Origin: Anaerolineae bacterium
GTDB taxonomy: Bacteria; Chloroflexota; Anaerolineae; Aggregatilineales; Aggregatilineaceae
DNA length: 33,114 bases
Assembly (NCBI GenBank): GCA_023382715.1
Contig: JAHDWP010000035.1
Span: 1 to 33,114 of the forward strand
Reading direction: 5' to 3'
The translations under genes and the position numbers were made by a program. Positions 24,241 to 31,235 of this stretch are shown here, piece by piece. Position 1 is the first letter of the stretch. Each line of letters starts with the position of its first letter. The notes under the pieces are model-generated. The model was not told where the DNA came from and did no database searches. It saw nothing but the letters and a program-made list of their open reading frames with translations.

Positions 24241-25977
24241 ATGGCCCTTGAGTCTGCGAAGAACCTTTTCGAACCGTTGGGTCTGGGCGAGCGCGCCCTG
24301 ACCATCGGCGACGTGGTGCGCGTTGCCCGCCAGGATGTCCCCGTGCAGCCGCTGCCAGAGTCGGCGCCGCCGGGCAGCGACCTGGCCGCCCGCCTGGAGC
24401 GGGTCGCGCGCAGCGCCGCCTGGGTTCGCCAGGCGATGCAGGAGGTCGAGCAGGCCGACGCTGAAGGCCGCCCCGCGCGCGCCCTCTACGGCGTGAACAC
24501 CGGCTTCGGCGACAACGCCGGACGGGCTATCTTCCGCCACCCGCAGCAGGCGGCGCAGCTCAGCCGCAACCTGCTGCTCAGCCACACCGTCGGGGTCGGG
24601 CCGTATCTGTCGCGGGACGCGGCGCGCGCGGCCATGCTCATCCGCGCCAATACGCTCGCCCAGGGCTATAGCGGCGTGCGCCGGACGGTGATCAACACGC
24701 TGGTCGCCATGCTCAACCGGGGCGTGCTGCCGGCCATGCCCGCCCAGGGATCGCTCGGCGCGTCCGGCGATCTCGCGCCGCTGGCGCACCTGGCGCTGGT
24801 GCTCAGCGCGCCCCTGCCCGGCGAGGAGCCACGCCCCGGCGCGAACGGTCAGGCGTTCTGGGAGGGGGCGCTGCTGGACGGGGCGGAAGCGATGGCCGCG
24901 GCGGGCATCCCCCGCGTGGAACTCGGCGCGAAGGAGGGCGTGGCCCTGATCAACGGCACGGCGGTCAGTGCCGGGATCGGCGCGCTGGCCTGGCACGATG
25001 CGTACCACACGCTGGCCGCCGCCGAGATCGCGCTGGCGCTGTCGGTCGAGGCGCTGCGCGGCTTCCGCGATGCCTTCCTGCCGCACCTGCACGCCGTGCG
25101 CGGCCACGAAGGCCAGGCGCAGGTCGCTCATTCCGTCTATCGGCTGCTGGAAGGCAGCACGCTGGTGCGCGGCGACGCGCACCTAGACCTCGACCCCGGC
25201 GAAGGCCCGCCGCAGGACCCCTACTGCCTGCGCGCCGCCCCGATAGTCTTCGGCGCGACGCTCGACACGCTGCGCCACGTCGAGGGCGTGCTGACGCGCG
25301 AGGTCAACGCCGTGACCGATAACCCGCTCATCTTCCTCGACGAAGAGGGGCCGCTGCACCTGCCGCGCGCCAGCAAAGCGGTCTCCGGCGGCAACTTTCA
25401 CGGCGCGCCGGTCGGCTACGCGCTGGACTTCCTGAAGATCGTCCTGACCGACCTGGCCAGCATCTCCGAGCGGCGGACGTTCATGCTGCTCGACGGGCGG
25501 CTCAACCGGGGGCTGCCGCCGTTCCTGGTCGCCGAGCCGCCGGGCGAAGAGGGGCTGAATAACGGCCTGATGCTGGCCCAGTACACGGCGGCGGCGCTGG
25601 TCAGCGAGAGCAAGGTGCTGGCCCACCCGGCCAGCGTGGACAGTATCCCCAGCAGCGCCAACCGCGAGGATCACGTCTCGATGAGCACCATCGCGGCGCG
25701 CGGCGCGGCGGAGATCGCCCGCAACGCCCAGGCGGTGATCGCCATCGAGCTGCTGTGCGCCTTCCAGGCGTTGTCTCTGCGGCTGGAGCAGCAGCCGGAC
25801 GCTCGCCTGGGGCGCGGCACGGCGGCGGCGCTGGACTTCCTGCGGACAGTGGAGATCGCGCCGGGCCATCTGCTGCGCCCGCTGCGCCGCGACGTAGCCA
25901 TGCACCCCTACCTGGACGCGCTGATCGAGGTTGTGCGCTCCGACGCGCTGGTGGAGGCGATCCACCACGCGCTGTAA
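24241..25977 (+). CDS. hutH: Histidine ammonia-lyase (aromatic amino acid ammonia-lyase family)
   Basis: This 578-residue enzyme deaminates L-histidine to trans-urocanate using the self-made MIO group. The MIO triad Ala174-Ser175-Gly176 lies in GSLGASGDLAPLAHLAL. Other family motifs are YGVNTGFGD (catalytic Tyr), NLLLSHTVGVG (the Ser-His pair seen in histidine and tyrosine lyases), NPLIF, SGGNFHG and SSANREDHVSMST. Activity on Tyr cannot be fully excluded. No hutU, hutI or hutG is adjacent, so the urocanate route must be encoded elsewhere or the enzyme serves another purpose. The 197-nt upstream gap shows no clear promoter; the SD is weak (AGAGAGAG). Confidence 0.88.
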   Translation: MALESAKNLFEPLGLGERALTIGDVVRVARQDVPVQPLPESAPPGSDLAARLERVARSAAWVRQAMQEVEQADAEGRPARALYGVNTGFGDNAGRAIFRHPQQAAQLSRNLLLSHTVGVGPYLSRDAARAAMLIRANTLAQGYSGVRRTVINTLVAMLNRGVLPAMPAQGSLGASGDLAPLAHLALVLSAPLPGEEPRPGANGQAFWEGALLDGAEAMAAAGIPRVELGAKEGVALINGTAVSAGIGALAWHDAYHTLAAAEIALALSVEALRGFRDAFLPHLHAVRGHEGQAQVAHSVYRLLEGSTLVRGDAHLDLDPGEGPPQDPYCLRAAPIVFGATLDTLRHVEGVLTREVNAVTDNPLIFLDEEGPLHLPRASKAVSGGNFHGAPVGYALDFLKIVLTDLASISERRTFMLLDGRLNRGLPPFLVAEPPGEEGLNNGLMLAQYTAAALVSESKVLAHPASVDSIPSSANREDHVSMSTIAARGAAEIARNAQAVIAIELLCAFQALSLRLEQQPDARLGRGTAAALDFLRTVEIAPGHLLRPLRRDVAMHPYLDALIEVVRSDALVEAIHHAL

Positions 25978-26589: not shown

Positions 26590-26967
26590 CTAGACGCTGG
26601 CGTTCTGCTCGATGCTTTGCAGGGCGTCGGCCAGGGTGGGGCGGAAGATGAAGTGGTGGGGGCTGTCGAAGCTGCCCAGGCTGAGCGCCAGCGCGCGCAG
26701 ATAGGGGTTGGCCCCGACGACGATCACGCGGCACACCCGGCGATCGCTCACCATGTGCAGGCTTTGCAGGCGCGGGAACAACTCCGCGCTGATCGTGTGC
26801 AGGCCGGACATATCGGCGATCACTGTGATACGCTGGTCGTCGCCGAGCCGCGCGAAGCAGGACGCTTCGGCATTCTGGGCGCTGTCCAGATCGTTGTGCG
26901 TGATCTGCCCTGAGAAACGGTAATACAGGGCGTCCGAAGCGGGGATGGCTTCGACATTGATGGGCAC
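26590..26967 (-). CDS. Small STAS/SpoIIAA-like protein
   Basis: This 125-residue cytosolic protein shows an alternating strand-helix pattern like STAS/SpoIIAA-like folds: NVEAIPASDALYYRFSG, RITVIADMSGL, FPRLQSLHMVSD, VCRVIVVGANPYLRALA and a closing helix. There is no Ser clearly in the anti-anti-sigma phosphorylation position, so the assignment is tentative and a regulatory or scaffolding role is inferred. It starts at GTG 26967, with GGGGGAAG 6-7 nt upstream. The 530 nt between it and arsC contain an unusually A/T-rich patch (27001-27020) that could be part of its promoter. Confidence 0.55.
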   Translation of the reverse strand: MPINVEAIPASDALYYRFSGQITHNDLDSAQNAEASCFARLGDDQRITVIADMSGLHTISAELFPRLQSLHMVSDRRVCRVIVVGANPYLRALALSLGSFDSPHHFIFRPTLADALQSIEQNASV

Positions 26968-27029
26968 GCGGACTTCCCCCTTTCTAGTTCCCAGGTACTA
27001 TCAAAAATCATTTTAACGGCAGTACCGCT

Positions 27030-27260
27030 GTGAAACAACGGGCCTGGGCGAGTTTTCATGCGATTTTCGTTTCCGGCTGCTTCCGCAGAGGTTGTCCTGA
27101 ATGTCGAGGTTTCACCAGGCGCGCCGGCGCTCGAAGGACGGCCCTGGGAAGCTGGCGCAGCGCCCGGCTCCCTCGTCCGGGCTTCTCTCCGGCAGAGCAG
27201 CGGGTGACGCCCTGCCACGCCCCTGTCTGACAGGCTTTGTGCGCATCCGCGCGCGAATGC
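27030..27260. other. Intergenic stretch without a recognised gene
   Basis: No gene is supported here. The stretch holds a small palindrome, CCTGTC-T-GACAGG (27222-27234), followed by CTTTGTGCGCATCC, which resembles the end of the family F repeat. The his-leader promoter begins immediately after it. Confidence 0.45.
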
Positions 27261-27289
27261 TTTACAAGCAGGTCGAACCTGTTTATACT
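27261..27289 (+). promoter_or_regulatory. Promoter of the His-leader/arsC/hisS operon
   Basis: TTTACA (27261-27266), a 17-nt spacer and TATACT (27284-27289) form a strong sigma70-type promoter with start near 27296. The spacer contains the palindrome CAGGT-CGA-ACCTG (27269-27281), which could be a regulator-binding site. Confidence 0.8.
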
Positions 27290-27315
27290 GGGACAGCACA
27301 GAGGAGAAAGACCCC

Positions 27316-27360
27316 ATGCGGCAGCGCCACCATCATTCCCACCACAGTGCGAACGGCTGA
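27316..27360 (+). CDS. Histidine leader peptide (14 residues, five His)
   Basis: ATG 27316 opens the frame MRQRHHHSHHSANG and ends at TGA 27358. GGAG (27303-27306) lies 9 nt upstream, and the predicted start site is about 20 nt before the ATG. The His codons are CAC CAT CAT, TCC, CAC CAC. Leader peptides with His runs control histidine biosynthesis genes in other bacteria, where ribosome stalling at uncharged tRNA-His prevents a terminator from forming. Here the same layout lies ahead of arsC and hisS, and a terminator hairpin starts 27 nt after the stop codon. Confidence 0.75.
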   Translation: MRQRHHHSHHSANG

Positions 27361-27386
27361 GTGAGCGGCCCTGCCCGGCGCGTGTC

Positions 27387-27417
27387 GAGCGTGGACGGTG
27401 GACGCCACGCTCTTTTT
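27387..27417 (+). terminator. Attenuator terminator of the His leader
   Basis: GAGCGTGG (27387-27394) pairs with CCACGCTC (27405-27412), followed by TTTTT (27413-27417). It stands between the His-rich leader and the coding genes, so it would abort transcription unless relieved. CCAC segments within the His-codon run could pair with the GUGG of its left arm as a competing structure. I could not fold this. Confidence 0.75.
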
Positions 27418-27497
27418 GTGTCGGGTGGCGCTTGCTCGCGCCCGCTCGTCGGGGAGGATGGGGCGCAGCGGCGGCTGGGTGTGAGAGAGGGGGAGCG

Positions 27498-27935
<438 letters not shown>

Positions 27936-28020
27936 GGGCGCGCTGGGCCGCGCCCGCCGGTTCGCGGGCTGGCTGCCCGCGCCAGACGAACTTCGATCCG
28001 CAGAAGTGGAGTGCTGACCT

Positions 28021-29355
28021 ATGTCCAAGATAGACGCCCGCCTGCCTAAAGGGATGCGCGATTTCCTGCCGGGGGAGGTGCTCAAGCGCGAGTACGTGAT
28101 CGGCGTGATCACTGATGTCTTCCAGACGTTCGGCTTCGAGCCGATCTACACGCCGGCGCTGGAGATGCTGGAGACGCTGCTCGGCAAGGGCGGCGAAGAG
28201 GCCGACAAGCTGCTTTTCCACGCGCAGCACCCCGGCGGCAAGGAACAGCTCGGCCTGCGCTACGATCTCACCGTGCCGCTGGCTCGTTATTTTGCCATGC
28301 ACGAAAACGACCTGGCTATGCCCTTCCGCCGCTATCACATCGCCCCGGTGTGGCGCGGTGACCGCCCGCAGAAGGGCCGCTACCGCGAGTTCTTCCAGTG
28401 CGACGTGGACATCGTCGGCGTGGCGAGCATGGCCGCCGATGCCGAGATCGTCAGCCTGCTGGTGACGGCGCTGGGGCGGCTGGGCTTCGCCGATTTCACT
28501 GTGCACATCAACAACCGCAAGCTGCTGACCGGCATCGGCCTCTACGCGGGCGTGCCGCAGGCGCAGCTTGGCGATCTGTATCGCAGCGTGGACAAGCTGG
28601 ACAAGATCGGACTGGACGGCGTGAAGCAGGAGCTGGCTGCCAGCGGCATCGCCGGTGATGCCATCGGGCGGATGACGGACCTGTTGCAGCACCGCGCCGG
28701 CGGGCTGGACGCACTGCGCCAGGTGCGCGCGCGGCTGGCCGGTGTGCCGATCGCGCTGGAGGGCATTGACGAGCTTGAGCAGATGGTCGAGTACCTGGGC
28801 GCGCTGGGGGTGGCGGAAGCGCGCTTCACGGTAGACCTGGCCATGGTACGCGGCCTGGGCTACTACACCGGCCCTGTCTATGAGACGTACATCACCAAGC
28901 CGGACAACCTGGGCAGCGTGACCGGCGGTGGGCGCTACGACGAGCTGGTGGGCATGTTTCGCGGCCAGAGCCTGCCGATGACCGGGGCCAGTCTGGGCAT
29001 CGAGCGCATCATTGACCTGCTCGACCTGCTCAACCTCTACCCGCCGGAGCTGACCGGCACAGTGGTGCAGGCGGTCGTCACCGTCTTCGACGAGCGCACG
29101 CAGGGCGCGTCGCTGGCCCTGGCCAACGAGCTGCGCGCGGCGGGCATCCGCACAGAGGCGATCATGACCCCCAGGCGGGCTATCGGCAGGCAGGTGCAGT
29201 ACGCCGACCGCAAGGGCGCACGGCTGGTCGCCTTCCTGGGCGAGGACGAGATCAGGGCCGGGCAGGTCAAGCTGAAGCGGCTGAGCGATGGCCAGGAAGT
29301 GGTAGTGCCGCGCGCCGAAGCGACAGCAGCGGCCCGCCGCCTGCTGGCCGGGTGA
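28021..29355 (+). CDS. hisS: Histidyl-tRNA synthetase
   Basis: This 444-residue class II synthetase charges tRNA-His. The N-terminus LPKGMRDFLPGE and motif 2 region RRYHIAPVWRGDRPQKGRYREFF are characteristic. The HisA motif is RGLGYYTGPVYE and motif 3 is ASLGIERIIDLL. A C-terminal anticodon-binding domain starts around VQAVVTVFDE. All key parts are intact and the length is normal. It follows arsC by 85 nt with no terminator or evident promoter between, so the two probably share the transcript controlled by the His leader. AAGTGGAG lies upstream of the ATG. Confidence 0.95.
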   Translation: MSKIDARLPKGMRDFLPGEVLKREYVIGVITDVFQTFGFEPIYTPALEMLETLLGKGGEEADKLLFHAQHPGGKEQLGLRYDLTVPLARYFAMHENDLAMPFRRYHIAPVWRGDRPQKGRYREFFQCDVDIVGVASMAADAEIVSLLVTALGRLGFADFTVHINNRKLLTGIGLYAGVPQAQLGDLYRSVDKLDKIGLDGVKQELAASGIAGDAIGRMTDLLQHRAGGLDALRQVRARLAGVPIALEGIDELEQMVEYLGALGVAEARFTVDLAMVRGLGYYTGPVYETYITKPDNLGSVTGGGRYDELVGMFRGQSLPMTGASLGIERIIDLLDLLNLYPPELTGTVVQAVVTVFDERTQGASLALANELRAAGIRTEAIMTPRRAIGRQVQYADRKGARLVAFLGEDEIRAGQVKLKRLSDGQEVVVPRAEATAAARRLLAG

Positions 29356-30765: not shown

Positions 30766-30827
30766 AAAGTGCCTAACATCCTATTCTACCTCACTTCCCG
30801 GCCTTGTTGCGCCCGGTAGAGGCTGGT

Positions 30828-30862
30828 GGGTGCGTGCAAAAGCTGACAGCGACTCGCCGGGG
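30828..30862 (+). repeat. Family F repeat, solo end
   Basis: GGGTGCGTGCAAAAGCTGAC followed by AGCGACTCGCCGGGG matches the terminal 35 nt of the family F element. Only one end is present. It lies immediately upstream of the MazF-like gene. Confidence 0.55.
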
Positions 30863-30905
30863 TGAGATAAACCAGGGCGCGGCGGTGGGAAACGAGGTGT
30901 GGTCA

Positions 30906-31235
30906 GTGGTCACTCCCAGGCGCGGCGACGTAGTCTGGCTTTCTTTCAACCCACAAGCCGGTTACGAGCAGGCTGGTTGTCGTCCGGCGGTGGTGCTCTC
31001 CCCCCAAGCCTATAATGCCAGAACAGGATTGGCCTTGCTCTGCCTGGTGACCAGCCAGGTGAAGGGCTACCCGTTTGAAGTTGCTATCCCGGACAATGGA
31101 CGAGTCTCTGGCGTGATCCTGGCCGACCGGGTTAAGAGCCTGGACTGGCGGGCGCGCCAGGCAGAGTGGATCATCAGCCTGCCCATTCATACCGTTGAAG
31201 AGGTGCTCGCCAAACTGGGCGCTTTGTTGGGTTAG
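30906..31235 (+). CDS. MazF/PemK-type toxin (orphan)
   Basis: This 109-residue protein matches the MazF endoribonuclease family throughout: RRGDVVWLSFNPQAGYEQAG, RPAVVLSPQAYN with the conserved Arg-Pro, LLCLVTSQVKGYPFEVAI, and VSGVILADRVKSLDWRAR with the conserved Asp. MazF toxins cut mRNA at short sites. I chose GTG 30906 because GAGGTG lies 6 nt upstream and the family N-terminus starts here; GTG 30897 and 30885 are in-frame alternatives. No antitoxin frame is present directly upstream, where a repeat end and palindromes lie instead, nor downstream. The toxin is full-length and looks intact. Confidence 0.87.
   Translation: MVTPRRGDVVWLSFNPQAGYEQAGCRPAVVLSPQAYNARTGLALLCLVTSQVKGYPFEVAIPDNGRVSGVILADRVKSLDWRARQAEWIISLPIHTVEEVLAKLGALLG

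Follow-up and report, generated by a model that had tools for sequence, protein, structure and literature searches.

A putative histidine leader-peptide attenuator in front of an ArsC-like gene and hisS in Anaerolineae (Chloroflexota)

The DNA analysed here, hereafter the window, is a stretch of 33,114 nucleotides from an Anaerolineae bacterium (assembly GCA_023382715.1, contig JAHDWP010000035.1). In it, a promoter, a His-rich leader ORF and a hairpin with a T tract precede a gene for an ArsC-like protein and hisS (Table 1). The original prediction, made from the letters of the DNA, had described a promoter, a Shine-Dalgarno (SD) sequence, a 14-codon leader with five His codons and a T5 terminator in this order, and every one of these parts was recovered in place. 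Profile matches likewise confirmed the two genes behind them, the ArsC-like ORF followed by hisS. A genome search of the 3.88-Mb genome returned one hisS match only, the gene in the window.

Table 1. Parts of the putative attenuator and the genes that follow it, in window positions
Feature	Position	Strand	Basis or remark
-35 hexamer TTTACA	27261-27266	+	Read from sequence; promoter-like site scan
-10 hexamer TATACT	27284-27289	+	17-nt spacer to -35
SD sequence AGGAG of the leader ORF	27302-27306	+	9 nt 5' of the ATG
Leader ORF, MRQRHHHSHHSANG then stop, five His codons	27316-27360	+	Translation; congener leaders MRQRHHHSHSSANG (G004) and MRQRRHCHHSPSKANG (G001)
Candidate antiterminator strand, directly 3' of the leader stop codon	27361-27374	+	Proposed by position from relatives
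Terminator hairpin GAGCGTGG-ACGGTGGACG-CCACGCTC	27387-27412	+	Folding, -16.7 kcal/mol alone; same sequence in G001 and G004
T5 tract of the terminator (TTTTT)	27413-27417	+	Sequence
ArsC-like / LMW-PTP family protein, 145 aa, first gene after the terminator	27498-27935	+	PF01451
hisS, histidine--tRNA ligase	28021-29355	+	TIGR00442, 388.9 bits (cut-off 286.75)

The promoter hexamers match the consensus at 10 of 12 positions, and a scan of 26800-28600 returned two promoter-like sites, where shuffled sequences averaged 0.2. From the ATG at 27316 to the TGA at 27360 the leader comprises 14 codons, of which codons 5, 6, 7, 9 and 10 specify His, and the SD stretch AGAGGAGAAA is common to the window and its congeners G001 and G004. 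The terminator arms, GAGCGTGG and CCACGCTC, enclose a loop of 10 nt; because of this loop, the hairpin was missed by a consensus terminator scan of the window that allowed only loops of 3-8 nt (0 sites, 1.2 in shuffles). The region accordingly carries a predicted leader cistron with translation signals and tandem His codons (14 codons, 5 His, SD), and an intrinsic terminator (27387-27417) between it and the first structural gene. At gathering scores, Rfam gave zero matches in the window, the His leader RF00514 included, and a T-box covariance model likewise gave none.

The designation of the intervening gene as an arsenate reductase held only in part. Its product matches the LMWPc family (PF01451), but its best NCBIfam model, TIGR02691 (pI258-type ArsC), scored 113.3 bits, below the cut-off of 174.3. 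Judged from these profiles, "arsenate reductase" is no more than a likely name for the product of 27498-27935, and we refer to it as ArsC-like. Two other genes of the window were noted in passing. A histidine ammonia-lyase-like gene at 24241-25977 (+), about 1.3 kb before the attenuator, scored just over the cut-off of NCBIfam PRK09367.1 and below that of the hutH equivalog, and its product is a possible histidine-degrading enzyme; a PemK/MazF-like toxin gene (PF02452) lies at 30804-31235 (+).

We consider it likely that the leader and terminator constitute a ribosome-mediated transcription attenuator, which, in a shortage of charged tRNA-His, would increase transcription of both the ArsC-like gene and hisS. 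With His-tRNA plentiful, the translating ribosome would reach the leader stop codon and cover the segment directly behind it (the post-stop segment), the hairpin at 27387-27412 would form, and RNA polymerase would halt before the ArsC-like gene. With His-tRNA scarce, the ribosome would stall on codons 5-10 and leave the post-stop segment free; this segment could then pair with the hairpin loop and its flanks ahead of synthesis of the 3' arm, so that transcription would continue into hisS.

To survey the region upstream of hisS, we searched 154 order genomes for the gene, which was detected in 128 (E <= 1e-100), and added 23 further loci from the other orders of this class. Upstream stretches were read at 150 loci, some contigs giving only some 95-500 nt, and one order genome (G356) was left out because its contig starts inside hisS. 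In the 148 loci with at least 200 nt upstream, we sought uORFs opening with ATG, 5-40 codons long, with at least three His in four consecutive codons and lying within 300 nt of hisS, and used 20 dinucleotide shuffles as control. Such His uORFs were present at 34 of the 148 loci, compared with 0.3 ± 0.6 in the shuffles, and the next residues in the same test were Ala (32 versus 9.8) and Lys (4 versus 0.2). The window, G001 and G004 fall outside this test because their leader lies 620-660 nt before hisS. Within 350 nt of hisS, a His uORF occurred at 41 loci, in 39 of which it ended 81-233 nt from hisS with no gene between.

These counts bear on whether the unit could be an accident, a His run and a hairpin meeting by chance in a GC-rich intergenic region. 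Taken alone, the fold of the 125-nt region would allow it, its structure as a whole being ordinary (z -0.45). The excess of His uORFs speaks against coincidence, however, and conservation across genera and families contradicts it; we regard this explanation as scarcely credible.

The combination of leader and terminator was then scored strictly (at least three His in six codons and a following terminator) or loosely (at least two His), with G014 and G015, where the leader stands before the ArsC-like gene, added to the counts by hand. A hairpin with a T tract was present at 62 of 150 hisS loci. Leader and terminator together met the strict definition in 41 of the 128 order genomes with hisS, representing 22 of 44 genera, and the loose one in 52 of 128, doubtful cases such as G393 included; 76 of the 128 fail even at two His. 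The distribution among families was uneven: the window's own family, f1, scored 10/15 strictly and 13/15 at two His, f4 scored 4/5 and 5/5, and f2 scored 27/88 and 34/88, with one case among 33 in its genus g35 by the three-His count. Neither definition yielded a leader with terminator before hisS in f7 (0/11) or f8 (0/9), and in other orders 3 of 23 loci qualified strictly and 4 of 23 at two His. G016 carries a leader with one His.

No T-box was detected at gathering scores at 40 further hisS loci, 37 of them in genomes with no leader by the strict definition; G018 does have one, G020 has a two-His leader, and G014 and G015 were among the scanned loci with their leaders outside the scanned stretch. 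A different arrangement was seen in three genomes from another order of the same class (G087, G120 and G147; loci L097, L100 and L095). There, at about 155 and 76 nt before hisS, a tRNA-His gene adjoins hisS upstream, with a T-run hairpin between the two genes. The 3' arm of this hairpin, CCTGGTTCC, is perfectly complementary to GGAACCAGG of the tRNA anticodon arm. In these three genomes of one genus, the hairpin could be an attenuator in which a part of the tRNA competes against the terminator, or it could mimic the anticodon arm.

Within the window's genus, the promoter, the SD sequence, the terminator (with the same sequence and position) and the greater part of the post-stop segment are common to the window, G001 and G004. 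The same promoter precedes the leader in these two congeners and also in G006, G016, G015 and G014. The fourth congener, G003 (L004:936-1060), has kept the promoter and the ArsC-like-hisS pair and lacks the His leader and terminator; on its sequence, G003 has lost the attenuator naturally. In G002, hisS was matched only weakly and in part. The His codons, whose lack of conservation in close relatives would by the original prediction have refuted it, are therefore kept in two of the three congeners with hisS (G001 and G004) but not in G003, which has no leader.

The leader lies directly 5' of the ArsC-like gene in the window, G001, G004, G014 and G015. The latter two belong to two other genera of family f1, and in both the leader (MRQLNHHHHTHIIT in G014, MLARQHHPHHEYD in G015) is followed by a terminator, the ArsC-like gene, other ORFs and then hisS. 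Given this recurrence, the arrangement is more than a feature of a single assembly, and the different ORFs that intervene indicate that the operon behind the leader varies between genera. By eye, these ORFs are a 285-aa frame and a sulfatase-like one at L217 (G014) and an alpha/beta-hydrolase-like one at L038 (G015). A literature search for an operon of arsC and hisS found none by title or abstract start.

The position of the leader directly before the ArsC-like gene in these genomes would suit a His-rich peptide that acts as a metal- or arsenic-related small protein partnering that gene, with no role in sensing tRNA-His. Leaders of the same kind, however, stand directly before hisS in 39 of the 41 loci with one within 350 nt, and also before hisG. 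Beyond His, the peptides share little sequence (by eye), and in most loci a terminator follows the leader directly. We judge such a peptide function very improbable.

The attenuator reading further calls for an antiterminator, and here the relatives were informative. In f2 and f4, the post-stop segment pairs with the terminator loop and upper arm, for example as GACCAACG/CGTTGGTC (G375, G387), AACCGGCG/CGTTGGTT (G377), GACCAGC/GCTGGTC (G360), GCTGAC/GTCAGC (G316), GAACGGT/GCCGTTC (G372), GATCA/TGATC (G374) and GACCCG/CGGGTC (G043), and others exist. At 20 of 39 f2 and f4 loci the helix takes in bases of the stop codon (score at least 5, start at base 2 or 3; a count without a control), so that a ribosome at the stop codon would cover the helix. 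Since a MAFFT alignment of 20 hisS attenuators puts some post-stop segments in the wrong place, pairing was counted per locus.

Permutation and shuffle controls, which remove sequence relatedness only in part, favoured the native pairings: in f2 and f4 the helix score was 5.32 for own against 4.50 ± 0.17 for permuted partners (n = 39, p = 0.0002), and across all families the energy of the 14-nt post-stop segment against the terminator loop was -7.49 for own and -5.63 ± 0.29 kcal/mol for permuted partners (n = 51, p = 0.0002). Own post-stop segments also paired better than shuffled ones (n = 54, p = 2e-8), and still did when each genus or lone locus contributed a single value (n = 30, p = 1e-5). 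By family, this shuffle test gave p = 1e-9 in f2, 0.09 in f4 and 0.10 in f1 (n = 11). Whole-spacer duplex energies taken singly were mostly not significant, with p < 0.05 in 6 of 55 loci.

Folding with a modelled ribosome revealed a corresponding dependence on its position. Over 55 loci, the mean probability of the terminator, P(terminator), was 0.47 when the ribosome was stalled on the His codon that opens the cluster, 0.89 with the ribosome at the stop codon, and 0.85 when it was stalled and the spacer shuffled. A stall-dependent switch, defined as P(terminator) of at most 0.10 when stalled rising to at least 0.80 at the stop codon, was present in 21 of the 55. In transcripts cut short ahead of the 3' arm, upstream pairing took up a share of 0.68 of the 5' arm when the ribosome was stalled, 0.42 when it stood at the stop codon and 0.56 when the spacer was shuffled (n = 56).

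Results in the window's own family were mixed. For the f1 loci, a 23-nt post-stop segment gave -2.56 kcal/mol for own minus shuffled (p = 0.003, n = 14). The f1 permutation tests were not significant (p = 0.64, 0.12, 0.48 and 0.17), and neither was the difference in the share of the 5' arm paired upstream (0.64 stalled versus 0.61 at the stop codon, p = 0.14).

In the window itself, the alternative fold sought by the original prediction exists, yet it does not prevail. An antiterminator-like hairpin from 27371 (-10.8 to -11.9 kcal/mol) and a duplex that begins immediately 3' of the stop codon (-14.2, loop cost not counted) each exclude the terminator (-16.7). The terminator nevertheless wins wherever the ribosome stalls: G000 (the genome of the window), G001 and G004 had no stall-dependent switch, with P(terminator) of 0.90-1.00 at each stall position tried. 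Shuffled spacers did as well as the native one, the window's antiterminator helix not being above chance (p = 0.26) and its 5' arm sequestration being reached by 0.75 of shuffles. Because the terminator is the more stable fold, the antiterminator step in this genus would have to be kinetic.

Decay of the attenuator in the window's genus would account for these values in another way: the leader and terminator would be inherited, the antiterminator would have been lost, and the hairpin would now brake the ArsC-like-hisS operon partially and at all times. The missing switch in G000, G001 and G004, the window pairing at chance level and the loss of both leader and terminator in G003 all fit such decay. 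Set against it, G000, G001 and G004 have retained the His codons, the SD sequence and the same terminator sequence even though neighbouring codons differ, and mutually exclusive helices do exist. In the E. coli trp leader, too, the antiterminator is less stable than its terminator, so thermodynamic dominance of the terminator is compatible with kinetic control, and we regard decay as unlikely. Comparison supports the histidine attenuator reading well, through leaders in two of the three congeners with hisS and in other genera and families, the adjacent terminator and antiterminator-like pairing in relatives. Promoter-like hexamers, leader, terminator and gene order are evident in the sequence. 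The switch is supported in relatives, whereas for the window we infer it; its dependence on tRNA-His charging is an inference for all the genomes.

A second His leader was found in the same genome, at L210:9251-9440 (contig C9). There, TTGACA and TATACT are spaced by 17 nt, and an ATG 7 nt later opens the apparently leaderless ORF MIAQQAHAHAHHPQAPQRRPAGAWMLCV, which is followed by a strong hairpin with T6 and then by hisG. In line come hisG and then genes that Pfam assigns to a histidinol dehydrogenase, an aminotransferase of class I/II (hisC by its place in the row) and an IGP dehydratase. In front of this genome's trpE-like and HMGL-like genes, a simple residue count around the frame start gave no leader for Trp or for Leu/Val/Ile.

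Of the 154 order genomes, 130 yielded hisG, and the 30 best-matching loci, from f1 (14), f8 (7), f3 (7) and f6 (2), were read. Among these best 30, a His-rich leader precedes hisG at 29 loci in f1, f3, f6 and f8, with a terminator in 29 of 29; the exception is G022 (f6), where 197 nt upstream are present. In 16 of the 29 the chosen ATG lies 7 nt after a TATA-type -10 hexamer, so these 16 hisG leaders look leaderless. At 20 hisG loci from f2 (12), f4 (2) and f7 (6), no clear His leader was seen in 3.5 kb upstream; a long frame precedes hisG there, and in G361 a leader before that frame is possible. A hisG leader throughout the order was considered and dropped, since the 30 loci covered f1, f3, f6 and f8 only and the 20 from f2, f4 and f7 had no clear leader. 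Among the best 29 hisG loci phylum-wide after the window's own, scored for the leader only, a leader was present at 11 of 15 in the class (14 from other orders, plus G018) and at 0 of 14 from other classes.

The stall model applied to the 29 hisG leaders gave P(terminator) of 0.71 stalled, 0.94 at the stop codon and 0.90 shuffled, a weaker contrast than at hisS. By family, f1 has leaders at both genes, f8 at hisG only, f2 and f4 at hisS in part of their genomes, and f7 at neither among the loci examined.

Attenuation by His-codon leaders has precedents. The his operon leader of proteobacteria (RF00514) has tandem His codons, a terminator and a proposed antiterminator. The window resembles it in the leader, the terminator and, as a candidate, the antiterminator (PMC9413887), and differs in the target gene and in having no RF00514 match. 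The same paper reports His attenuators of Firmicutes his operons, which share with the window a His-rich leader, a terminator and, as a candidate in the window, an alternative antiterminator outside Proteobacteria; those control his biosynthesis operons, whereas the unit in the window precedes hisS (PMC9413887). Chloroflexi appear there only within a reference title, and another paper places them among the groups with non-significant leader-gene statistics (PMC4833913).

The original prediction had called an attenuator controlling hisS seemingly undescribed, which is too strong. For Bacillus hisS* and hisZ, a leader peptide with His codons had been predicted by Naville and Gautheret (2010); there, as in the window, a His-codon leader ORF and a premature terminator precede a gene of the histidyl-tRNA synthetase family (PMC2965389). 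Compared by description, those are Firmicutes paralogs beside a T-box-controlled hisS, whereas in the window the leader stands before the sole hisS match in its Chloroflexota genome and is separated from it by an ArsC-like gene. PMC1262725 reports attenuators at trpS and leuS of Streptomyces and names pheST (gamma-proteobacteria), which are like the window in having a leader peptide attenuator before a synthetase gene and unlike it in amino acid and phylum. In the open-licence literature, we found no report, by title or abstract start, of a His leader in front of either hisS or hisG in Chloroflexota. A comparison of attenuation at operons for amino acids and aminoacyl-tRNA by Lopatovskaya and others (2010) could include hisS cases.

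Taken together, the leaders at the two genes make it quite possible, though we would stop short of calling it probable, that family f1 has a histidine regulon run by leader-peptide attenuation at hisG-hisD-hisC-hisB and at hisS, with sister families having retained just one of the two. The stop codon would, in many hisS units, lie within the antiterminator, which the terminating ribosome would erase directly; in three f1 genera, the unit stands before the ArsC-like phosphatase and would tie this enzyme to histidine supply. The probable attenuator before hisS would extend ribosome-mediated attenuation, reported for Proteobacteria, Actinobacteria and Firmicutes, to Chloroflexota and to the seemingly sole hisS of a genome. 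The loci also form a natural variant set in which leader, stop codon, post-stop segment and terminator differ together and which is absent in some sister lineages, and this set may be useful for studying the origin and decay of such switches. Finally, the arrangement predicts a testable link between histidine supply and the ArsC-like enzyme.
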